From a virus, in IMG/VR virus record IMGVR_UViG_3300042898_000581, positions 1-43,859 of that record: 43,859 nt of DNA; one strand, given 5' to 3'. Shown one piece after another: positions 6,071-37,876 of this stretch (positions are counted from its first letter, which is position 1; each line of letters starts with the position of its first letter). A model generated the notes under the pieces. That model saw only the letters and a program-made list of their open reading frames with translations, ran no database searches and was not told the DNA's origin. The position numbers and the translations under genes were made by a program.

Positions 6071-7618
6071 TTAGCTTATGACCGCAAAGAAGGGCAATGG
6101 AGCTATGTATTCATCATGGTCACGAATCTGTGTCTCTAAATTCACATGATAATCACTTAAATGCTGTAACATACGTGTAACTAACAAACTAGCCATAATC
6201 AAATCGTCTGTATCCCCGATTTTAGCGGCATAGCTTCCGCCGTGTGCGACAAACGCTTTTAGTTCACTTATAAGACTACGACTATTTACAGTCATTTTCT
6301 TGCTCTCAACCAATGTTTTAAACTTAGCACAACTTGCTAGTTTGCTTTTATTAGTTGTATTAAATCCTCTACGTCCTTTGCCTGCTTCGCTAATAAAGAT
6401 ACCCGGGATATTACTTTCCCCGTATTCGTTTAATGATATGATAGCGGCTTCCCCAATTCCATTACATTCAATAGAATAGTAGATGTTGTTTGGTTCGTTT
6501 GTACATTCTGCTATATATTTGCTTATCTGTGCTAATAGTTTAATCTGACTTGGGATATCCGTTTTATTATGTTTCCATTCACCTACTTGTGTAGTAGTAT
6601 TTGCTTCAAAGATTTGTATGGCTGACGGGTCACCACCTGTACCTAAGCTTGGGTCTAATCCTACACAATAAATATTACCCTTCTTAGGCTTTTCATACCA
6701 ACGTACTTGTCCTATACGACTTACAGGTTCTATACCTTCCATGGCTATCAATGTATTTGGATTAATCAATGTCTCATCAGCAATAATGAACTCGCACCCA
6801 ATTTCTCGGTTAAAACGATCATCGCCGAGCTGTGCTTTTATTTCATCAGCCCACTTTTGATCTCGTCCTGGTTGTTCACTCCAATGCGCTCTATATGCTC
6901 TGAAGCCGTTAACACCTATTTCTGTTGTGTTACCAAAATCATCTTCGGTCTTGTTAGCACCCTTCCAAATATAAGCAAATTGATCCTCGTCACTGTTTGG
7001 TGTGCTTGTGATAATAGCTTTACCACCTGTTGACAATGTTGGTGTTATAGCTGTCCAGAATTCTTTAGCAATACTTGGTCTAACGAATGCAAACTCGTCC
7101 AAATATAATAGTGTAATAGACATACCACGACCTGTATTTTCAGTAGTTGTTGCACTTACAATACGACTACCATTCTCAAAGTCTAATGATCCTTTGTTGT
7201 ATGTTGTTACACCAGCTTTAATATGATCGGGGCAGTTTTCATATGCATAACGAATACGTTGCATAATCTCCTGAGCACCTGTATATTTGTGTGCCGCAAC
7301 CAAGATAGTACTGTCTGGTACAAACATGGCGTACCAGAGTAAGTATCCTGCGGCTGAAGTTGACTTACCAGATTGACGAGGCATCAAGCTGATACTATAA
7401 CGATAGTTGTGATATGTTTCAATCAATCGTTTTTGATAGGGCCAAGGATGATAAACCATACTACCTTTAGTAGGGTGTTGTATCATAAAGAAGTTATCCA
7501 TAAAATATAGATAACCTGTATCTGGGTCACAGCATTTAATAAAATCCTGTAGTTCTTTATCAGTTTTAAAAACTGTTTTAGTATAGGGATTCTTTACTAG
7601 TGAAGGTGTATTACTCAT
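6071..7618 (-). CDS. 17: Terminase large subunit (gp17-like)
   Basis: This 515-residue protein is the packaging motor ATPase and nuclease. The N-terminal ATPase domain has a Walker A-like PRQSGKST (residues 80-87), Walker B TLLYLDEF (169-176) and coupling motif STPN (205-208). The C-terminal RNase H-like nuclease shows D322 (GLDPSLGTGGDPSA), E384 (IECNG) and D471/D472 (DTDDLIMAS), the expected acidic triad. Length and motif order fit T4-like large terminases, though it is shorter than T4 gp17 (610 residues). No small terminase gene is recognised nearby. A consensus TATAAATA late promoter ends 6 bases before the ATG. Confidence 0.96.
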   Translation of the reverse strand: MSNTPSLVKNPYTKTVFKTDKELQDFIKCCDPDTGYLYFMDNFFMIQHPTKGSMVYHPWPYQKRLIETYHNYRYSISLMPRQSGKSTSAAGYLLWYAMFVPDSTILVAAHKYTGAQEIMQRIRYAYENCPDHIKAGVTTYNKGSLDFENGSRIVSATTTENTGRGMSITLLYLDEFAFVRPSIAKEFWTAITPTLSTGGKAIITSTPNSDEDQFAYIWKGANKTEDDFGNTTEIGVNGFRAYRAHWSEQPGRDQKWADEIKAQLGDDRFNREIGCEFIIADETLINPNTLIAMEGIEPVSRIGQVRWYEKPKKGNIYCVGLDPSLGTGGDPSAIQIFEANTTTQVGEWKHNKTDIPSQIKLLAQISKYIAECTNEPNNIYYSIECNGIGEAAIISLNEYGESNIPGIFISEAGKGRRGFNTTNKSKLASCAKFKTLVESKKMTVNSRSLISELKAFVAHGGSYAAKIGDTDDLIMASLLVTRMLQHLSDYHVNLETQIRDHDEYIAPLPFFAVIS

Positions 7619-8430: not shown

Positions 8431-8805
8431 TTATTTTCTTTTATAGCCTTTAAAAGGTTTAACAGTGCTTTGAGTGTTTGTGCCATCTAATTCTTTACTT
8501 TTCAAATCACCTTTATTTAAATCGTGATAATCAGATCCTGCAGCCTTGTATGCCATCAGTAACATATCTTGTTCTTGCTGAGTATAAGGTACTGCAATAT
8601 TATATCTTCCAGCCCAACTTTCACCGTCCATATTTGGTACAAAAGTTCCATCGGTTGCGGCCGCTGCCATCATAATTCTATTCAATTCATATATCCGATC
8701 AGCCGCGTTGTTATCACGAAATTTATGTAACCCTTTTGTGGCCATTTGTTTTCTATTTCCTATTTTTCCGATTTTAGATTCGGATACAAATTCATTTGCT
8801 CTCAT
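8431..8805 (-). CDS. Putative capsid-targeted internal protein (paralogue A)
   Basis: A 124-residue protein that starts MRANEFVSES. This resembles the T4 internal-protein capsid-targeting sequence MKTYQEFIAE, which gp21 protease removes after the Glu inside the prohead. The last residues, PFKGYKRK, are almost the same as the C-terminus of the adjacent 8802-9209 gene (GFKGYKRK), so the two share both ends but differ in the middle. The ATG overlaps the neighbour's stop. The middle segment has no recognised fold. A role as an internal, possibly ejected, head protein is inferred. Confidence 0.78.
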   Translation of the reverse strand: MRANEFVSESKIGKIGNRKQMATKGLHKFRDNNAADRIYELNRIMMAAAATDGTFVPNMDGESWAGRYNIAVPYTQQEQDMLLMAYKAAGSDYHDLNKGDLKSKELDGTNTQSTVKPFKGYKRK

Positions 8806-9209
8806 TTTCTTTTGTATCCTTTGAATCCTTTAATCGGTGACTGAGTTAATGTATCGTCCATCTCATCACTTTTAGGAGTACTTACCATTTTTTTACCAGA
8901 TTTTCCAACTTTCTTTAATGCTTGGTCAATAGTTTTACCAAGTTCTGTATCAAACTCAGATGACACAACCTGATGTTCTCCCCAACTACTTTCTGCTCTA
9001 AACTCCGGCTCAAATCCATTCTTTACATTATCGTTGCCACCTTCGCCCCTGACTGCGGCAATCGCTACACCAAAACGATATAAATCATAGAAGTCATTGT
9101 TCTTTAACTCTGGAATAACATACGTGTTAGGTAGGGACATAGTTGCTAAATCTAAACCATCGTGTACTTTACTCAATGTTGTTTCAGTAATAAATTCTTT
9201 TGCTCTCAT
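8802..9209 (-). CDS. Putative capsid-targeted internal protein (paralogue B)
   Basis: A 135-residue protein with N-terminus MRAKEFITETT, another match to the T4 capsid-targeting sequence; the predicted cut is after ITE. The basic C-terminus SPIKGFKGYKRK is shared with paralogue A. The region between is unlike paralogue A and has no recognised domain. The start overlaps the preceding stop by one base at 9209, and a 4-base overlap links it to paralogue A. Whether it is packaged is inferred from the motif alone. Confidence 0.78.
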   Translation of the reverse strand: MRAKEFITETTLSKVHDGLDLATMSLPNTYVIPELKNNDFYDLYRFGVAIAAVRGEGGNDNVKNGFEPEFRAESSWGEHQVVSSEFDTELGKTIDQALKKVGKSGKKMVSTPKSDEMDDTLTQSPIKGFKGYKRK

Positions 9210-11120: not shown

Positions 11121-11128
11121 GTATTTAT
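11121..11128 (-). promoter_or_regulatory. T4-like late promoter for the lysis cluster
   Basis: CATAAATACGC on the minus strand, 7 bases before the spanin-like ATG, overlapping the stop codon of the radical SAM gene (11125-11127). Late timing fits lysis genes. Confidence 0.65.
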
Positions 11129-12105
11129 GCCAGGGGATACTTACTTTCAGGAAGTATTTTAGTTGCTACCATATCAGTTCCGCAAAAACATTGTTCAATT
11201 TTACAGGGTACGTAATTATCAGTAAATGATATATTATCATATAGACTACGTGTTTCACCCTGTTCGCATACTCCTCTATATATAACATCATGGTCAATTC
11301 TCATAGTAGATGATCCTATATTACAATCCCAACCCATAAAGTTGTTTTTTTGTTGTTTCATTAATACTTGGGGATTAATATTATAAGAAAGGTTGTTGTT
11401 ATATGTTATTTTTAAAGTATGATTTATTTTATATTTAGGATCTAATAAAGATTTTACTTTAGTATTTTTATGTTTTCCGGGTAACCAGTTTTCAGTCTTT
11501 AATTTAGTTATTTCTTCAGTTGTATATTTTGAATATATATCTGGATTTCCCATCATTGCTTTAACTGTTATAGTTGCTCCGGTGTTTTTAATTAAATATT
11601 CCTGTGCTTCAAATGCCTTATCTAAAGTAGTATACACATGAGTAATCAAGCATATTACATCTGTAGCCTCATTATGAAATAAATTTGCAACTTCTGTAAT
11701 ATGGTGATAATCATTTGTTTGCTCACTATGGTATGTTAAAAACAAATTATCCATTAATTTTGATTCTTGTAACTCTTTCCACCACCTGATAGTTCTTGCG
11801 CCATTTGATATCATACTTATCATTGCCCCTTTAGACTTCATATATGCTAATAAAGGAATGAGATCGGGATATAGTGTGGGTTCACCGCCGGTAATTTGAA
11901 TCCAAAAAGGCATATCACCGCATGCCGCAACTAATTTATCAGTATATTCTTTGTATTTGTCTAAAGTAAACCATCGTTGACTTCCGTCTTTGTGTCTGCT
12001 ACCGCAAAAACTACAATCATGGTTACATACGTTATGTATCTTCCATTCAATGAATTTATAGTCTGCTTGTGTTGCTTTTTCTACTTTAATTGGGAATATC
12101 TTCAT
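11125..12105 (-). CDS. Radical SAM enzyme with C-terminal cysteine cluster
   Basis: A 326-residue radical SAM protein. The 4Fe-4S motif CNHDCSFC (CxxxCxxC, C27/C31/C34) is followed by ITGGEPTLYP (71-80), the SAM-binding GGE motif. Near the C-terminus several cysteines (GWDCNIG, GVCEQG, VPCKIEQCFCG) resemble a SPASM-like auxiliary cluster site. Such enzymes modify peptides, sugars or nucleotides. It follows an epimerase and a DegT aminotransferase, so sugar or surface chemistry is possible, but the substrate is not known. The start overlaps a late promoter region, with no clear Shine-Dalgarno. Confidence 0.85.
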   Translation of the reverse strand: MKIFPIKVEKATQADYKFIEWKIHNVCNHDCSFCGSRHKDGSQRWFTLDKYKEYTDKLVAACGDMPFWIQITGGEPTLYPDLIPLLAYMKSKGAMISMISNGARTIRWWKELQESKLMDNLFLTYHSEQTNDYHHITEVANLFHNEATDVICLITHVYTTLDKAFEAQEYLIKNTGATITVKAMMGNPDIYSKYTTEEITKLKTENWLPGKHKNTKVKSLLDPKYKINHTLKITYNNNLSYNINPQVLMKQQKNNFMGWDCNIGSSTMRIDHDVIYRGVCEQGETRSLYDNISFTDNYVPCKIEQCFCGTDMVATKILPESKYPLA

Positions 12106-12108
12106 CAG

Positions 12109-13176
12109 TTATTTATAGAAATTAATAACCTTACTTGCGATATATTCTACTTCTTGGTCAGTTAATTCCGGATACATAGGAAGACTTAATACTCCCCTAG
12201 ATAATAATACGCTATTACTTAATAGATCGGGTTTAGCTAATTCTTTGCCAATTGGTAAATCACCCAACACATATTCATAATGAACTTTACTATCAATTCC
12301 ATCAGTCAATAAATGCGTATGTAAACTATTACGATCGGCTAAATACATTACAAATTTTTGATGAGCATGAGGATCTTTTGTATCCGACAAACAATTTATA
12401 GGCAAGTCTTTAAATTTATCACACCAATATTTTGCTATATTACTTCTACGTTTTTGCCACTCATATATATATTTTGTTCTAACTAATATTTGAGCACAAT
12501 CTTGTTCGCTCATCTTGCTATTAGTCCCGGCATTGTAAAAATAAGGCTTGTTATTATCTCTGTAACTTGAAGCATATAGATATAACTTTTCATCGTTTGT
12601 GACAATTGCACCACCATTACCTGAACTAGGTAAATTCTTTGTAGGGTCAAAACTGATTGACATACCACTACCCACATCACCTTCACATGCTAACCAATGT
12701 TGTGCTCCATCAACTATTACTCCATATGCATTTGGATAATTAGCATTAGGCCAGGGCTTGCGACCCGCAAATCCCATCACACAATCATATATTCCACCTC
12801 TACCTGTCTCATGTTGGATAACACCATTCTTATCAGTATCAGCTAATTCAATGTCCCAGCCAGCTGTTATAAACGCATTTAGTGTGGCTGGGTAGGTTAA
12901 ATTAGGAATACGAATTTTGGGGTTGCCCTCCATAGTTTCACTGTGTGAAATCTTTTTCCAACGGGCTATAATCTCTAATGCTTGTGTACCTGAATGTACA
13001 GTTATAGCATACTTTGTACTAGTACGATGTTTTAGCCATTCTTCAAACGATCGGGTGTAATGACCACCAACTAGTTTACCGTCTTTTAGGGCACGGTGAG
13101 TTGCATCAAGCAACTCTTCACCGATGTTCTTATACTGTCTTGCTAGACCAAAATGCGGAATTACTAAGCCACTCAT
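12109..13176 (-). CDS. DegT/DnrJ/EryC1/StrS-family aminotransferase
   Basis: A 355-residue PLP-dependent sugar aminotransferase-type protein. Visible features are HSGTQALEI near residue 61 (cofactor phosphate site), IVDGAQHW with D156 and SFDPTKNLPSSGNGGA with the likely PLP lysine K180. Family members transfer an amino group from glutamate to nucleotide-linked keto-sugars. The start overlaps the end of the upstream epimerase by 47 bases, which suggests a translationally coupled pair making an amino sugar, for virion or host glycan modification. The C-terminal part is typical. The exact sugar is unknown. Confidence 0.9.
   Translation of the reverse strand: MSGLVIPHFGLARQYKNIGEELLDATHRALKDGKLVGGHYTRSFEEWLKHRTSTKYAITVHSGTQALEIIARWKKISHSETMEGNPKIRIPNLTYPATLNAFITAGWDIELADTDKNGVIQHETGRGGIYDCVMGFAGRKPWPNANYPNAYGVIVDGAQHWLACEGDVGSGMSISFDPTKNLPSSGNGGAIVTNDEKLYLYASSYRDNNKPYFYNAGTNSKMSEQDCAQILVRTKYIYEWQKRRSNIAKYWCDKFKDLPINCLSDTKDPHAHQKFVMYLADRNSLHTHLLTDGIDSKVHYEYVLGDLPIGKELAKPDLLSNSVLLSRGVLSLPMYPELTDQEVEYIASKVINFYK
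12110..12117 (-). promoter_or_regulatory. Consensus T4 late promoter at the radical SAM gene
   Basis: TATAAATA followed by ACTG and the ATG. The spacing (4 bases) would put the transcript start within the start codon, so the promoter may serve the next genes or give a leaderless message. It overlaps the stop of the DegT gene (12109-12111). Confidence 0.65.
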
Positions 13177-14098
13177 AATATTTTTGAAATCCTTCTTCTA
13201 CATCTATCTTAGGATCATAACCAAAGTCTCTACGAGCGGCATCAATGTTCAATGCACCACGACTTGGGAAATCAGCATCTTTATCTTTAACTATCAATGT
13301 TCCACCACCTGCTAACTTCAATGCTAGTTGTGCGGCTTCTAACAATGTACGACTGTGACTCTTGGTGATATTATATGTTTTGTTATTGGTGTTATTACTT
13401 AATGCGGCCGCAACAATACCATCTGCGGCATCTTCTACATATGTAAAGTCTAATGTTTCATTTGCACCATTAACATTCAATATGCCGCCTCGCATTGCGG
13501 TAAGCATAAACTTAGCAATAACACGATCCTCAACATCTAGTTCACCATACACCGCACTTGGACGAATGATTGTATGACTAAAACATCCACGACGGCTATA
13601 ATCTTCTACTAATCTTTCTCCGGCTAGTTTCATAATGCCATACTGACCTTGCGGCTTACAGTTATAATCTTCTGTTACGTCATCTGTAAAGTCACCGTAT
13701 ACCATTGAACTACTGATATAAACAAATTTCTTTATTCCATGCTTCTTACTAACTTCACACAAATTTAATAGACCTTCCATCATTGTTTTTGCTCCCATAG
13801 TTGGATTAGCATTAACAACTTTTTGTCTTGGAAAACTAGCCATATGAATCACAATATCAAACTTGTATCGTTCAAATAACCAATCAATACTTTCGCTAGA
13901 AATGTCAATAGCATGGATACTGCCGGGTTGTATTTTCTTCAACCGTTCTGTCATTAGATAGTCAATCTCATCTTGTGGAATGATACCGTAGTTAGTTCGT
14001 ATATCGGTAATAGCAACACGGTGTCCCATATGTTGCAATCTATCTACTACATTATGTCCGATAAGTCCTAATCCACCTGTAACTAGTATATTACTCAT
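13130..14098 (-). CDS. NAD-dependent sugar epimerase/dehydratase (SDR)
   Basis: A 322-residue extended short-chain dehydrogenase. The nucleotide-binding motif GGLGLIG is at residues 8-14, a catalytic YGIMK at 153-157, and the preceding YISSSMVYG segment supplies the catalytic Ser. Members interconvert nucleotide sugars such as UDP-glucose or GDP-mannose derivatives. The ATG is within the end of the 14091-14423 gene, and the 3' end overlaps the aminotransferase gene, so these form one cassette with the radical SAM gene. The specific sugar cannot be read from sequence. Confidence 0.9.
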   Translation of the reverse strand: MSNILVTGGLGLIGHNVVDRLQHMGHRVAITDIRTNYGIIPQDEIDYLMTERLKKIQPGSIHAIDISSESIDWLFERYKFDIVIHMASFPRQKVVNANPTMGAKTMMEGLLNLCEVSKKHGIKKFVYISSSMVYGDFTDDVTEDYNCKPQGQYGIMKLAGERLVEDYSRRGCFSHTIIRPSAVYGELDVEDRVIAKFMLTAMRGGILNVNGANETLDFTYVEDAADGIVAAALSNNTNNKTYNITKSHSRTLLEAAQLALKLAGGGTLIVKDKDADFPSRGALNIDAARRDFGYDPKIDVEEGFQKYYEWLSNSAFWSSKTV

Positions 14099-27330: not shown

Positions 27331-28212
27331 TTAGAAGCGATGTGTTACACCAACACCAACTTGTTTTACGTCATTTGCTGTACCAGTAGCATCAACATTA
27401 CGATAGTTGACACCTAATGCAGTACGCTTACTGAAGTTATAATCAGCACCCATTGCATAAGCTTTAACATTAGTATTTGTTTTACCATAGCTAGCTTTAG
27501 CAGTTACTGGACCAAATGCTTGACTTGCACCAAACAAATCACCTGTACGTGCTACCGCACCTTTGTCATCACTATGTGAGTAAAATACTTGTGTATTACC
27601 TAATTTTGCGCTACCAGCATATACTGTACTTTTCTCAATACCTTGAGTATATTGTGCAACTGTTGCGTTAATACCAAACAATTTTGCACTTGCACTATAG
27701 CTAGATGCTTCTGTACCTACACCATTTTGTGTGCGGTCATATGTTGCAGTTACACCTTTGACTGGTGTCAACGCAAAGAATGTACCATTGCTCATTCTTA
27801 AACCACGCAAGTTATGTACATCACCTGCAACACTACCATACAATGTACCAAATGCATCATTGTTAGTAATTGATAAGAAGTGACTGTGTAGATTGCGACC
27901 TAAATCAATGCTACCAAGCTTGTTTGCCAAACCAATTGTTGATTGACGATCACCAAGTTTAGTATCTGCACCAGTGATAGGATCATTGGCTTTTAAACTT
28001 GTATCTAGTACTATACGAGCCTTCATACCACCAATGTTTTCATTTACTGAAATAGTGATGTTGCTTGTTGGATCAGTAGCTAGAGTTGTTTTGCTAGTAG
28101 CACCAGTCTTAGTATTGTCAACAAATTCGCTGATTTTACCATTTAGATTAATTTGTGCTGTTGCAACTAGTGTTGTTGCGGCCAATAATGTCGCTATTGC
28201 GATTTTCTTCAT
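27331..28212 (-). CDS. Outer-membrane porin (betaproteobacterial type)
   Basis: A 293-residue protein with a signal peptide (MKKIAIATLLAATTLVATAQ, likely cut near residue 19). Alternating beta-strand sequence follows, and it ends VGVGVTHRF, the terminal Phe typical of outer-membrane beta-barrels. INLNGKISEFVDNT after the signal fits Gram-negative porin_4 proteins of betaproteobacteria. Usual relatives are around 340-400 residues, so this is short but looks complete, with the C-terminal strand intact. It has its own TATAAATA promoter, a 5' hairpin and a strong terminator, so it is regulated as a late single-gene unit. Presence in a phage is unusual. Confidence 0.82.
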   Translation of the reverse strand: MKKIAIATLLAATTLVATAQINLNGKISEFVDNTKTGATSKTTLATDPTSNITISVNENIGGMKARIVLDTSLKANDPITGADTKLGDRQSTIGLANKLGSIDLGRNLHSHFLSITNNDAFGTLYGSVAGDVHNLRGLRMSNGTFFALTPVKGVTATYDRTQNGVGTEASSYSASAKLFGINATVAQYTQGIEKSTVYAGSAKLGNTQVFYSHSDDKGAVARTGDLFGASQAFGPVTAKASYGKTNTNVKAYAMGADYNFSKRTALGVNYRNVDATGTANDVKQVGVGVTHRF

Positions 28213-29824: not shown

Positions 29825-29840
29825 TGTGATCCGGATCACA
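29825..29840. promoter_or_regulatory. CRP-like palindrome upstream of the DUF4214-like promoter
   Basis: TGTGATCCGGATCACA is an exact match to the CRP pattern TGTGA-N6-TCACA and is centred about 62-64 bases before the predicted transcript start, near the class I CRP spacing. It overlaps the racemase stop codon (29836-29838). It might instead be a symmetric operator for another regulator. Confidence 0.45.
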
Positions 29841-30519
29841 TGTTGGTGTGAAAAATAGCTTTTTTGACCAAACTATCTATGCTATTCACTAATGGTATAC
29901 CATTTTGCTCCAATTCTTTAACAGCTAAGGGTAATTCTGTGCAACCCAATACTACTGCACTTGCACCCCGACTAATCAAACTATCTACTACAGAAATTAA
30001 CATGGTATGTGATTTAACCATATCCCCTGCTTTAATTAAATCTATAGCAGGTTGTACTATGTTATCCATTTCTTCTTGACTAGGAACAATACAATCCCAA
30101 TCAGTTAACCGATTTTGATATAAGCCTAATTCAATTGTAGCCTGTGTTCCCATTATACCTATTGTGCCTGTAACATTTATATCACGTAATGAATCAGCTA
30201 CGCTATCTACAATATGTAGAATAGGAATTTTAAATTTAACTAATTCATCATACCAGTAATGTGCTGTGTTGCAAGGTATGACAATTGAAGTACATCCAAC
30301 TGCTTTCAATACTTGCATACCTTGTAGTAAGTATGGTAGTGGTCTATCATCACCATTACGTATACTTGTACTACGATCTGGTACACGTGGTTCATTCCAT
30401 AGTACGAACGGAATATGTTCTTGGTCACAACTTGCAGGTGTTTGTTGTATAAGTCTAGTTACGAACTCTGCACTTGCGGCTGGACCCATTCCACCTAGTA
30501 TACCTAATCGTTTGGTCAT
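29836..30519 (-). CDS. Aspartate/glutamate racemase family protein
   Basis: A 227-residue Asp/Glu/hydantoin racemase family protein. N-terminal LGILGGMGPAA (GGMGP at 9-13), first catalytic Cys in PCNTAH (C83), second in GCTE (C193), both present, so a two-Cys acid/base mechanism is possible. Length fits bacterial aspartate racemases. It could produce D-aspartate or D-glutamate, used in peptidoglycan. Its ATG overlaps a 20-codon membrane peptide stop (ATGA), and the unit is downstream of a symporter and a periplasmic binding protein, forming a small amino-acid cassette. Confidence 0.9.
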   Translation of the reverse strand: MTKRLGILGGMGPAASAEFVTRLIQQTPASCDQEHIPFVLWNEPRVPDRSTSIRNGDDRPLPYLLQGMQVLKAVGCTSIVIPCNTAHYWYDELVKFKIPILHIVDSVADSLRDINVTGTIGIMGTQATIELGLYQNRLTDWDCIVPSQEEMDNIVQPAIDLIKAGDMVKSHTMLISVVDSLISRGASAVVLGCTELPLAVKELEQNGIPLVNSIDSLVKKAIFHTNM

Positions 30520-30578
30520 ATTATAACCAATATGATGATTATGAAAATACCAATAGCTATTACGCTAGGAAGTCTCAT
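30516..30578 (-). CDS. 20-residue single-pass membrane peptide
   Basis: A very short ORF, MRLPSVIAIGIFIIIILVII, almost entirely hydrophobic after the first few residues. Its start overlaps the stop of the 200-residue membrane gene (ATGA, 30575-30578) and its stop overlaps the racemase start (ATGA, 30516-30519). Two exact 4-base overlaps in tandem support translation, although peptides this short are hard to prove. It could be a membrane regulator of the transporter or only a coupling device. Confidence 0.5.
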   Translation of the reverse strand: MRLPSVIAIGIFIIIILVII

Positions 30579-31177
30579 TTTTTGAATAATAATGCCGAAG
30601 CAATAACTAATGCTGTTTGTGCGGCTTCTACATCAGCTGGTTGCTCTTTCCAACCTACACTAATTTGACCAATGAATACGCCGGGTTCAGCAGGTACACT
30701 GATTCTACACATATAGTTAACACCATTCTCCCTGTACGCAAATCCAATTAAGCTTTGTGGCTTAAGATAAGGACTACATGGTATCTTACCAGACATTAAA
30801 CCAATCACATCATTGTTGTTATCGTAGTTTTTAGAAAATAATCCAACATCTAATCCATCATGTTGTTTTATTCTTCCACCATTGCGTGTAGCTAAGAACA
30901 CAATTTTTCTAGTGTTTACTAGTGTATTAACTTCCATTATAGATACAAGTTCTACCTCTGTATTTTTTAATAAGAAATTATATGCCTCATCATACTTGCC
31001 GTTCATCTTTGGTAATGCCTGTTGAGCTTTATACGTTGCCAAGAATGAATCTTTTTCTGTATAAACGATCCAACCAGCAAATCCTAGTATACAGAGAAAG
31101 ACAACGGTGAATAGACGAAATGGACTTTCGCCTATATAAGTTAATAAACTAAAGAGAAAATCTTTAAGTTTGTCCAT
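30575..31177 (-). CDS. Membrane-anchored periplasmic protein
   Basis: A 200-residue protein with a single hydrophobic anchor (about residues 18-40, RLFTVVFLCILGFAGWIVY) and a probably periplasmic remainder containing a KIPCSP/YMCRIS Cys pair. I do not recognise the family; I recall similar anchored proteins in T4-like phages near transport or lysis genes. It starts inside the symporter gene (14-base overlap) and is followed by the 20-residue peptide with ATGA. Confidence 0.72.
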   Translation of the reverse strand: MDKLKDFLFSLLTYIGESPFRLFTVVFLCILGFAGWIVYTEKDSFLATYKAQQALPKMNGKYDEAYNFLLKNTEVELVSIMEVNTLVNTRKIVFLATRNGGRIKQHDGLDVGLFSKNYDNNNDVIGLMSGKIPCSPYLKPQSLIGFAYRENGVNYMCRISVPAEPGVFIGQISVGWKEQPADVEAAQTALVIASALLFKK

Positions 31178-32441
31178 CCGGTGCTACCTCTTTGTCACAG
31201 ACAAATGCTGTTACTGCTACGTTACCGTGTACATGACTTGCTGTGCGAATCATATCCATTAATGGGTCAACTGCAATCAACAACACTAACACAGCTTCAC
31301 TTGGAAGTTTTAACAAGTCACAAACAACTGCTACTGTAGCAACTGTTAAGATACCTGTTGTGCCTGCACTTGCTAGTCCTGCTAAGATACTACCAAATAA
31401 CACAACCATTAATCCGGTTAAGCCCAATGGTGCATCATAGATGTTGGCAATAAACACTGTGGCGATAGCATAGTAAACAATACTGCCAATACGATTAACA
31501 GTGAAACTTAGTGGAACAGTTAATTCAACTCCGCCTTTATCAAAGTGTAGTCTGTGTAATGATTCTTGTGCGTATGGTATACATGCTAATGAACTGCGTG
31601 AGCTAACAGCTACAATCAATGTTTCTTTAGTTTCACGGATAACAGTCATTAAACTTAATCCACTACGCATCCAAATTACAACAGTGCCTGCAATAACTAC
31701 TAATAGACCACCAATAAATTGTTGCATTACAAAGTCAAACATAGTTAAGAATATACCTACACCCACTTTACCAACTTGTGCTGATATCATTGCTAACAAT
31801 GCAATTGGTAAAAAGTAATTTAAGAACTTAAAGATGCTGATACTTGCTTGTTGAATGCTTTTAAGCACTTCTACAAGCATCTTTTGACCTTCTGTTTTAA
31901 GATGTCCAAGCGCAACACCAAATATTAAACAGAAGATAACAATCTTCAAGCTTTCACCATTGTTTAGTGTATTGAAGATGTTTTCTGGAATAAACTTCTC
32001 TGCCATTTTACCTGCATTTACTGAGGGTTCTACTGGCATTGGTTCTTTAAGAGTAATGTTTAAGTCTGTCCCACTGTCTTTGTCGTTTACTAGTACACCA
32101 AGTTGTGTTTTCTTCTCAGGTGTCATTTCTGTGCCAGTTATTAGAACAGTACCTACGCCAATAGTTGCGGCTAAGAACATACTACCAACAAAGCCTACAA
32201 TGATTTTGCGAATCAATTGTTGACTACCTTCTTTCTGTAGTAAGCCAATGATACCAACTAAGATAGTTGCTAATAAGAATGGTAATACTACAACTTTAAG
32301 TAAGCTGATGTAGATGCCTCCTAAGCTTTCAAAGTTTAAGCTGAACTCAGGAGCATATACTCCACTAAGTATACCAACAATGATAGAACCAAGTATGGTC
32401 CACGGGCTTGTTAAAAACGTTTTTAAATGTGTGGTTGTCAT
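31164..32441 (-). CDS. Dicarboxylate/amino acid:cation symporter-type transporter (DAACS)
   Basis: A 425-residue multi-pass membrane protein. It has SSRSS (280-284) where the family's serine-rich HP1 lies, ASAGTTG (357-363) at HP2, and DPLMDMIRTASHVHGN (392-407) in TM8, with D396 and R399 at the positions that bind acidic substrates in GltPh. The usual NMDGT of TM7 is replaced by NRIGS (316-320), and the TM8 N and D positions are H403 and N407, so sodium coupling may differ; an SSRSS subfamily with similar changes exists. It lies between the binding-protein gene and a membrane gene, with which it overlaps by 14 bases. Confidence 0.88.
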   Translation of the reverse strand: MTTTHLKTFLTSPWTILGSIIVGILSGVYAPEFSLNFESLGGIYISLLKVVVLPFLLATILVGIIGLLQKEGSQQLIRKIIVGFVGSMFLAATIGVGTVLITGTEMTPEKKTQLGVLVNDKDSGTDLNITLKEPMPVEPSVNAGKMAEKFIPENIFNTLNNGESLKIVIFCLIFGVALGHLKTEGQKMLVEVLKSIQQASISIFKFLNYFLPIALLAMISAQVGKVGVGIFLTMFDFVMQQFIGGLLVVIAGTVVIWMRSGLSLMTVIRETKETLIVAVSSRSSLACIPYAQESLHRLHFDKGGVELTVPLSFTVNRIGSIVYYAIATVFIANIYDAPLGLTGLMVVLFGSILAGLASAGTTGILTVATVAVVCDLLKLPSEAVLVLLIAVDPLMDMIRTASHVHGNVAVTAFVCDKEVAPDGQT

Positions 32442-32450
32442 AGCAGGTCC

Positions 32451-33269
32451 TTATTTCTTTTCTGCTTTATATCTATCCATTAACTTTTTAGTGTCAATGT
32501 TACTGTATTCATTTTTGATAACATAATCTACAATACTTAGTAACTGTGTAGATTTGTAATTTACTGCTACTGCAATGTTATCTACACTATCACTGATTGT
32601 AATTGACTTTGTAGTAATGGCTGCATCTGGTTTTTCAAAAGCAATTTTCTTAATTTCAAATTCATCTCTATAAGCGGCTGCAATATCACCACGTGTAACT
32701 TTATCAATGATTACTTCCCATTTATCTTCTGGAAGAAACGTAGCTTTAGGGAAATTAGTACGTGCAAACGTGTCGTAGCTTGAGTTACGTATGAAACTTA
32801 TTTTACCATTAAAATCTCTAATGACTTGATATACTTCACGACCTTGGCTGTTTTGACTTAACCATAAACGATTGAGAACTAGTGACTGTCTTAATTTAAC
32901 GTATGGTGTGCTAAATTTAACTACTTGTAGTCTAGGGGCTGTAACAGATAGTTTACTTACTGCAACGTCTGCTCTACCGTCTCGTACTTGTTCAACAACT
33001 TCAGCAAAGCTTTCAGCATCTCGTCTAAACTGTACGGGAACTCCAAGCATTACGCCTATTCTTCGTGCAATTTCAACGTCAAGACCTTTGATATCATCCC
33101 CTTCACCACTGAAGAAAGGAGGGTTATCTTTTTTGGTCATTGCCACAATAAGAACGTTTGCTTTCTTAATTGCGGCAATATCAGGGGGTAGTGGTACCGT
33201 AGAAGTTGGTAATTGTGCGTGGACAACTGAACTAATCAGTACGAATAATAATAGTAGTAGTTTTTTCAT
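32451..33269 (-). CDS. Periplasmic amino-acid-binding protein (SBP_bac_3 type)
   Basis: A 272-residue protein with signal peptide MKKLLLLLFVLISSVVHAQ (cut near VHA/Q) and the two-lobe substrate-binding fold of polar amino-acid receptors: VLIVAMTKKDNPPFFSG early, GLDVEIARRIG, VVEQVRDGRADVAVSKLS (residues about 111-128), then the second lobe and a C-terminal helix. Usually these serve ABC transporters, but the next gene is a DAACS-like symporter, as in tripartite-like or scavenging arrangements. A TATAAATA promoter sits 6 bases before the ATG, so the mRNA appears near-leaderless. Which amino acid it binds is not known. Confidence 0.88.
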   Translation of the reverse strand: MKKLLLLLFVLISSVVHAQLPTSTVPLPPDIAAIKKANVLIVAMTKKDNPPFFSGEGDDIKGLDVEIARRIGVMLGVPVQFRRDAESFAEVVEQVRDGRADVAVSKLSVTAPRLQVVKFSTPYVKLRQSLVLNRLWLSQNSQGREVYQVIRDFNGKISFIRNSSYDTFARTNFPKATFLPEDKWEVIIDKVTRGDIAAAYRDEFEIKKIAFEKPDAAITTKSITISDSVDNIAVAVNYKSTQLLSIVDYVIKNEYSNIDTKKLMDRYKAEKK

Positions 33270-37153: not shown

Positions 37154-37489
37154 TTAAATTTTGATGAGTATGTCAGAGTTTGGAGTTAATGATGGCACGC
37201 CAGGCCAAACTGTTTTTAACTGAAATTTTAGAGTACTGTCACTTATTCTTCTCAGTCCTAAGGCAGTTTCGCTTGACCAATCGTAAACCCAAAACCTTTG
37301 TCCAGATGGGATTTTTTGAAGTTTGCGTAATACTTTAGGTAATTGTTTTTTTATAATATAATCTACAGCGTGGGGAGATACCCCACGCTCTTTGGCACGA
37401 TCTATTGCATGTTGGTCTACTATGATTTCTAAATCATTAGTAATTATAGTACCCATAGCCGCTTCTGTTATAACTTCATTAATACGCAT
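37154..37489 (-). CDS. Putative capsid-targeted protein with DUF4258/toxin-like fold
   Basis: A 111-residue protein starting MRINEVITEAAM, again like T4 MKTYQEFIAE-A, with a predicted cut after ITE. The mature part begins ITNDLEIIVDQHAIDRAKERGV and contains H and R residues arranged like DUF4258 / BrnT-type small RNase-like proteins (HAIDRAKERG). If both readings hold, it could be an internal head protein injected with DNA. A late promoter lies 3-4 bases before the ATG. The enzymatic function is inference. Confidence 0.68.
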   Translation of the reverse strand: MRINEVITEAAMGTIITNDLEIIVDQHAIDRAKERGVSPHAVDYIIKKQLPKVLRKLQKIPSGQRFWVYDWSSETALGLRRISDSTLKFQLKTVWPGVPSLTPNSDILIKI

Positions 37490-37530: not shown

Positions 37531-37571
37531 TGCTATTTTCTGTTACGAGGGATAACTCCCCTAAGCGGCGT

Positions 37572-37604
37572 TCAGGCTGCTAATGCGAACTGTGAGTCGT
37601 TTGC
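37572..37604 (-). other. tmRNA tag-coding sequence
   Basis: From a GCA resume codon the frame reads ANDSQFALAA then TGA (37572-37574). With the alanine carried by the tmRNA the tag is A-ANDSQFALAA. It keeps the AND start and the ALAA end recognised by ClpXP-type proteases; the middle resembles betaproteobacterial tags such as ANDERFALAA. Confidence 0.92.
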
Positions 37605-37724
37605 GGTTACTTTTTTTGCTTCTACGACCGAGTTACCCCAATCCTAACGGCTTCTGCTTTGCCGAGCTGTCCACTAATTTACTTGTTGCCCTGTCGAATC
37701 TAGGTCAGGCCCATCATAAAGAAA

Positions 37725-37796
37725 CTAACTTGTCATTTCATTAAAAATAAAAAGCATAATAACAATTAGTACTATCCACTTGCTAAAATTTTCCAT
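37725..37796 (-). CDS. 23-residue membrane peptide ORF inside the tmRNA intervening segment
   Basis: MENFSKWIVLIVIMLFIFNE and MTS, with a strong AAAGGA ribosome-binding site 6 bases before the ATG. It is inside the segment removed when the two tmRNA pieces are made. Hydrophobic except for the ends. A real product is uncertain, but the site, start and frame are intact. Confidence 0.45.
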   Translation of the reverse strand: MENFSKWIVLIVIMLFIFNEMTS

Positions 37797-37808
37797 TATA
37801 TTCCTTTA

Positions 37809-37866
37809 TGGTGGACCTGGGGGGATTCGCACCCCCGTCCAGAACACTTTTCTCTTTGCTTCATAC
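37809..37866 (-). other. tmRNA acceptor piece (3' tRNA-like domain)
   Basis: T-stem GGGGG/CCCCC with loop TGCGAAT, then acceptor strand CAGGTCC, discriminator A and encoded CCA. TGTTCT just upstream can pair with AGGGCA of the coding piece as a short P2 helix (two G-U). The 5' end is about 10 bases after the stop codon of the 1377-residue gene. Confidence 0.8.
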
Positions 37867-37876
37867 AGCAATAACT

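Follow-up and report, generated by a model that had tools for sequence, protein, structure and literature searches.

In a viral DNA we have identified a circularly permuted phage tmRNA whose excised spacer appears to double as a tiny mRNA, a reading to which we assign a probability of a little under 0.8. The window, an IMG/VR virus record analyzed over its full 43,859 bases, encodes a T4-type terminase, a RecA/UvsX-like protein and a thymidylate synthase, and the tmRNA starts seven bases after a gene for a 1377-residue protein (42010-37877, minus strand). Permuted tmRNAs are already known in T4-like phages, and it is the nesting of protein genes in the excised spacer for which we found no earlier report. 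If the reading is correct, a phage non-coding RNA gene doubles as a protein-gene cassette, with one transcript yielding both a ribosome-rescue RNA and a protein from the discarded part, and this might be why the split form of the gene is well suited to phages. It would also mean that small phage proteins, many of them single-pass membrane peptides, are hidden where gene finders may not look.

The tmRNA at 37870-37572 (minus strand) is recognized by both Rfam and ARAGORN. In a cmscan search, RF04321 (tmRNA_permuted) scores 117.1 bits (E 2.3e-22, cut-off 47) over model positions 1-213 of 213, and RF01850 (beta_tmRNA) scores 112.9 bits (E 1e-33, cut-off 84) over the whole model length; the latter is the sole clade-specific model retained in its clan for the window, placing the RNA in the betaproteobacterial subtype. 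The initial annotation had proposed a permuted tmRNA at 37532-37870 and had suggested Infernal with the Rfam permuted models as the check; that range and the anatomy hold, with coordinates exact to the nucleotide, ARAGORN gives coordinates that agree with it, and the encoded CCA, the full 7-bp acceptor stem with G3-U70, the tag ANDSQFALAA with its hydrophobic end and stop codon, and the terminator are all confirmed (Table 1). The gene order is permuted: the 3' piece, which carries the acceptor end, comes first, and the 5' piece, which encodes the tag, lies downstream of it. All seven acceptor stem positions are paired (37819-37813 with 37712-37706), and the precursor from 37875 to 37685, folded with the acceptor stem, has a z score of -4.4 and beats 200 of 200 shuffles. 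The T-loop is intact and no intron family in Rfam matches the window, which argues against a tmRNA of the group I intron-containing form.

Table 1. Features of the permuted tmRNA locus in the window, in order of transcription.
Feature	Position	Strand	Support
Acceptor piece: P2 helix 5' strand, T-arm, 3' acceptor strand, discriminator, CCA	37809..37870	-	RF04321, ARAGORN
T-arm: GGGGG, loop UGCGAAU (G55), CCCCC	37836-37832, 37831-37825, 37824-37820	-	
3' acceptor strand CAGGUCC	37819-37813	-	
Discriminator A; encoded CCA	37812; 37811-37809	-	
Intervening segment (spacer), 96 nt, predicted to be absent from mature RNA	37713..37808	-	cmscan coordinates
Putative Shine-Dalgarno (SD) sequence AAGGA of nested ORF, inside spacer-end helix	37802..37806	-	sequence, fold
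Nested ORF: ATG, 23 residues MENFSKWIVLIVIMLFIFNEMTS, TAG stop; hydrophobic, transmembrane-like	37725..37796	-	homologues L060, L356; hydropathy
Coding piece: 5' acceptor strand GGGCCUG, D-region ACCUAGAUUCGACAGGG, tag frame to stop	37572..37712	-	RF04321, ARAGORN
Tag reading frame ANDSQFALAA; UGA stop	37604-37575; 37574-37572	-	ARAGORN, tag frequency
Intrinsic terminator GAAAGGCUC-UUCG-GAGCCUUUC; U-run	37530-37509; to 37503	-	

The tag is strongly associated with viruses. A pattern for ANDSQFALAA that allows some variation at the fourth residue matches at least 120 IMG/VR stretches, and host tags were judged through the same search of 84,980 species genomes, where it matches one contig (L127) encoding the Thr variant ANDTQFALAA and the exact tag is absent. 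We rejected L127 as a genuine genomic carrier, since it is a 3-kb contig of a metagenome-assembled genome and most members of its GTDB family lack a permuted-tmRNA match (3 of 49 exceed the cut-off); it is probably a misbinned phage contig. Among the listed viral tag matches, every tmRNA found by ARAGORN is permuted, and many of the matches that ARAGORN missed have the T-loop GGCAGUG; two such loci were tested (L011 and L124), and Rfam recognized both. A collection search found no cultured phage that matches the typical coding piece of this tmRNA type, and plasmids, considered as a source of host tmRNAs, gave short T-arm matches only. That the tag is enriched in viruses suggests a non-host signature on the proteins tagged in infected cells, which could be sought by proteomics. 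We also note that Xanthomonas phages X1 and Rb1 and Stenotrophomonas phage vB_Sm_QDWS359 (L352, L353 and L354) carry permuted tmRNAs with structured spacers that are not annotated as such; the hosts of these phages presumably have a one-piece tmRNA.

Across about 280 viral tmRNAs the T-loop and D-region change together, pairing UUC with UGG, UGC with UAG, and GGC..G with either CAG or UAG, and at the level of single positions T-loop 55 co-changes with D-loop 18, and 54 with 58. The GGCAGUG T-loop and its D-region were considered as a new structural class and rejected as such because the Rfam alphaproteobacterial consensus has GGCGGUA with UAGGAUCGAC; the data do contain the 18-55 and 54-58 co-changes, but these are probably not new. 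We also dropped a further class of parser hits, with T-loop TGTTGAT and CCG ends, as probably spurious.

The intervening segment of the window holds an ORF that the initial annotation missed. The two ends of the spacer are predicted to pair (UAAAGGAA, 37808-37801, with UUUCUUUA, 37724-37717), and because the SD sequence lies in this helix, translation of the ORF may be weak or conditional. The ORF ends 12 nt before the 5' piece (G37712). It is short and, taken alone, reaches p 0.07 against shuffles; the same ORF is present at the same place in two relatives (L060 and L356) with few substitutions, and comparison of the window with L060 gives dS 0.74 and dN 0.07. We regard the evidence for the window's own 23-codon ORF as modest, with the population statistics carrying its case, and production of the micropeptide as likely, although less secure than the tmRNA anatomy and the ORF excess.

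The population statistics come from 222 distinct viral permuted tmRNAs, parsed from three scans whose patterns, on the tag or the T-arm, are blind to the spacer. A full-span ORF was defined as one whose start lies among the first bases downstream of CCA and whose stop is no more than 16 nt from G1; similar spacers were clustered, and expected counts were taken from shuffles retaining both spacer ends. Full-span ORFs occupy nine of nine clusters with spacers of at least 200 nt (0.00 expected), 10 of 15 with spacers of 140-199 nt (0.17 expected), 6 of 27 at 100-139 nt (1.23 expected) and 20 of 86 at 60-99 nt (8.99 expected). The last of these is only about twofold over chance, and the loosely defined ORFs in 60-99 nt spacers were therefore set aside as evidence, with strict criteria and hydropathy substituted. 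When an ATG, an SD sequence and a fixed stop position are all required, 27 ORFs among 137 are found where 0.48 are expected, and in the 60-99 nt spacers there are 13 where 0.39 are expected. No spacer of 140 nt or longer has a full-span ORF on the reverse strand. These counts demonstrate, at the level of sequence, that predicted protein-coding ORFs are in strong excess in the spacers of viral tmRNAs. Of the 222 tmRNAs, about four fifths have a spacer without a full-span ORF.

The ORF-bearing spacers also share sequence signals. An SD-like sequence is present in 33 of 41 ORF-bearing spacers and in 17 of 117 ORF-less ones (Fisher p 2.6e-14), with the ORF-bearing class set by position only, and in the ORF-bearing spacers it falls in the 5' strand of the spacer-end helix (33/41). 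Pairing of the spacer ends is in cis, with a mean of -7.7 kcal/mol for a spacer's own ends versus -2.9 kcal/mol for ends swapped between tmRNAs (n=166), and the helix is weaker in spacers with an ORF than in those without (-6.0 versus -8.4 kcal/mol). The sequence UGAU directly precedes G1 in 35 of 41 ORF-bearing and 85 of 117 ORF-less spacers and provides the stop codon for most of the ORFs; in nearly all ORF-bearing cases the stop codon lies 1 or 12-14 nt before G1. Because both the helix and UGAU are also found in ORF-less spacers, the ORFs appear to borrow processing signals. At four loci (L464, L025, L041 and L312) the spacer ORF stays open beyond the predicted RNase P site and enters the body of the tmRNA, with UGUU in place of UGAU before G1.

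Hydropathy predicts that most of the short spacer ORFs encode peptides with a single transmembrane segment: 28 of 31 micro-ORFs pass the hydropathy cut as transmembrane-like, whereas the alternative frames give 3 and 0. Recognizable proteins in spacers include a DUF2061 membrane protein (3.5e-20) and a CxxCxxCC protein (1.3e-6) from the unselected scans, and a thioredoxin (4.1e-21) from a further scan selected for SD and ATG after CCA, which also gave more members of families already found. The spacer proteins of L265 and L295 have no convincing PDB or Pfam match, and L437 and L442 each have two ORFs in one spacer. Relatives of the DUF2061 protein occur in 55 viral loci and lie inside a tmRNA in only two, both already known, and from this we conclude that the DUF2061 gene was captured. 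Highly similar spacer proteins are found across T-loop classes (L295 versus L441 and L457; and L039, L043 and L264), which means that spacer and tmRNA body recombine. Substitution patterns give evidence of selection on several spacer ORFs, with dS and dN of 1.38 and 0.15 for L263/L276, 0.25 and 0.03 for L283/L302, and 1.47 and 0.13 for L043/L264; the L120/L313 pair has no excess of synonymous change. Several short proteins with MR(I/A)xE-like starts are encoded in the window at 8431-9209 and 37154-37489 and by the spacer ORFs of L265, L283, L295 and L482; these starts resemble the capsid-targeting starts of T4 internal proteins.

From these features we infer how the RNA could be processed, charged and used for tagging, and how its spacer could be translated. 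A single precursor would begin with the acceptor piece, continue through the spacer and the tag-coding piece, and end at the terminator. Cleavage by host RNase P would create the 5' end at G37712, and host 3' nucleases would expose the CCA end at 37809, with the two halves held together by the acceptor stem and P2. The RNA would be charged with alanine by virtue of G3-U70, bind host SmpB and EF-Tu, and rescue stalled ribosomes in infected cells, adding the phage's own tag, the ALAA end of which would suit ClpXP-type proteases. The spacer would contribute an SD sequence in its first bases and the 23-codon ORF for a putative membrane micropeptide, and in relatives the same slot holds other small genes, many with the conserved UGAU before G1 as stop. 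The ORF signals in the window together with the other small genes in the slot of its relatives suggest that the spacer is a gene slot co-transcribed with the tmRNA. The initial annotation had the phage using its own rescue system, which stands for the RNA but not for SmpB: neither the window nor the tmRNA-bearing relatives nor any further virus record searched (the longest of 383 kb) yielded one, whereas ten bacterial controls gave a hit. Because these virus records are partial and come from metagenomes, the negative is suggestive only; SmpB has been recorded in huge phages (PMC7162821). Most likely the RNA uses host SmpB, AlaRS and EF-Tu.

There are several related systems to consider. The initial annotation knew of no permuted tmRNA described in a T4-like phage, but the T4-like OM43 methylophage (myophage) Melnitz has a two-piece tmRNA, and 53 of 133 unique phage tmRNAs are reported to be ARAGORN two-piece structures, nearly all aquatic (PMC9004378). 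Pelagibacter phage Mosig likewise has a permuted tmRNA, annotated as SsrA, with a 44-nt spacer lacking a full-span ORF. Both are T4-like phages of aquatic bacteria with no SmpB of their own reported, although their tmRNAs are alphaproteobacterial in type whereas that of the window is betaproteobacterial, and Melnitz is linked to a glutamine riboswitch, of which there is none in the window at Rfam gathering thresholds. The two-piece tmRNA of Betaproteobacteria (RF01850, RF04321) shares with the window the gene order, T-arm, acceptor stem, G3-U70, CCA and a tag ending in ALAA, but the window's version is phage-borne, combines T-loop G55 with D-region UAG, and has a tag that is absent from the species genomes apart from the Thr variant; moreover its spacer holds an ORF, whereas that of the Rfam permuted model is short, at about 30 positions. 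Among tmRNA genes with a group I intron, some harbor a homing endonuclease gene (PMC11915505); this is likewise a protein gene that lies inside a tmRNA gene and is lost from the mature RNA, but there a self-splicing intron lies in the T-loop, whereas the window ORF lies between permuted halves and the proteins are unrelated. The intervening sequence of a permuted tmRNA has been described with a tRNA-Ala gene in one case and a repetitive element in another (PMC11915505), which is the same slot, but these are single cases of an RNA gene or repeat rather than recurrent protein genes. Among open-licence PMC papers, including the 2025 tmRNA database paper (PMC11915505), we found no report of a protein gene in a permuted tmRNA spacer.

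One alternative is an ordinary phage permuted tmRNA with a spacer that is filler, such that the window ORF is there by chance and only the long ORFs of relatives are real captured genes. We think this unlikely. It is consistent with the existence of other phage permuted tmRNAs, with the majority of spacers lacking a full-span ORF, and with the modest excess of loosely defined ORFs in short spacers and the p value of the window ORF, but it does not account for the strict ORFs in the 60-99 nt spacers, for hydrophobicity confined to one frame in 28 of 31 micro-ORFs, or for retention of the window ORF in L060 and L356. Alternatively, the tmRNA could be a degenerate, non-functional remnant or a decoy that titrates SmpB, as a TLD-only tmRNA described in mycobacteriophage DS6A may do. 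The altered T-loop and D-region (UGCGAAU with UAG) and the failure to find a phage SmpB in the records searched would fit, but the acceptor stem is complete and is accompanied by CCA, G3-U70 and a tag with its stop, while the T-loop and D-region co-change over the roughly 280 viral tmRNAs and pair likewise in the alphaproteobacterial Rfam consensus, and we consider a remnant or decoy highly improbable.

Two further proposals keep the spacer ORF functional and add a link to the tmRNA itself. In one, which we view as doubtful, the ORF is a control device sensing ribosome availability through tmRNA supply, either because translation through the spacer-end helix competes with precursor processing, or because an RNase P cut beside the stop generates an almost non-stop mRNA that is policed by tmRNA. 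The location of the SD sequence within the helix, the weaker helix of ORF-bearing spacers, the stops placed 1 or 12-14 nt before G1 and the small number of ORFs entering the tmRNA body (as in L464 and L025) all favor such a device, but ORF-less spacers have the helix and UGAU too, so that the ORFs may merely borrow them, and the encoded proteins are mutually unrelated. A bolder extension of the tiny-mRNA reading, which we offer tentatively and with low expectation, is that permuted phage tmRNAs reserve their spacer as a gene slot and couple its translation to maturation of the tmRNA, with ribosome supply balancing the small protein against the rescue RNA; it is likewise improbable, in our judgment, that an SD sequence locked in the spacer-end helix and a stop codon at the RNase P site constitute this coupling. 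If the spacer is indeed a tiny mRNA, any link between its translation and RNA processing becomes directly testable.

The tmRNA locus appears to have a history of replacement. The tmRNA downstream of homologues of the 1377-residue gene differs between relatives: in L413 and L416 (at about 7150-7500) it has the GGCAGUG T-loop and CCU instead of an encoded CCA, and its 23-nt spacer forms a hairpin that extends the acceptor stem, and in L415 it is of a third type. At L412 (7100-8150 of IMGVR_UViG_3300023174_000038, 348.7 kb) the first part of a window-like acceptor piece is broken off in the T-loop by an inserted HNH endonuclease ORF, and beyond this ORF lie another acceptor piece, unlike the first, and a coding piece. 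This arrangement and the differing tmRNAs of the relatives suggest that a homing endonuclease swapped tmRNA alleles. Compact tmRNAs with a 23-nt spacer, an acceptor stem extending into the spacer hairpin and CCU rather than an encoded CCA are found at L413/L416, L011 and L415, and these could be an unprocessed, closed form. At L008 there are two successive acceptor-like pieces with a 52-residue ORF between the first pair, possibly a tandem, partly decayed tmRNA.

Elsewhere in the window, 27331-28212 encodes a Gram-negative porin (Porin_4, 1.2e-19) with an apparent signal peptide, and the region 29836-33269 encodes an Asp/Glu racemase, a sodium:dicarboxylate symporter and a family-3 solute-binding protein, together forming an amino-acid uptake set. 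Genes for a radical SAM protein, a DegT/DnrJ aminotransferase and an NAD-dependent epimerase adjoin one another at 11125-14098.
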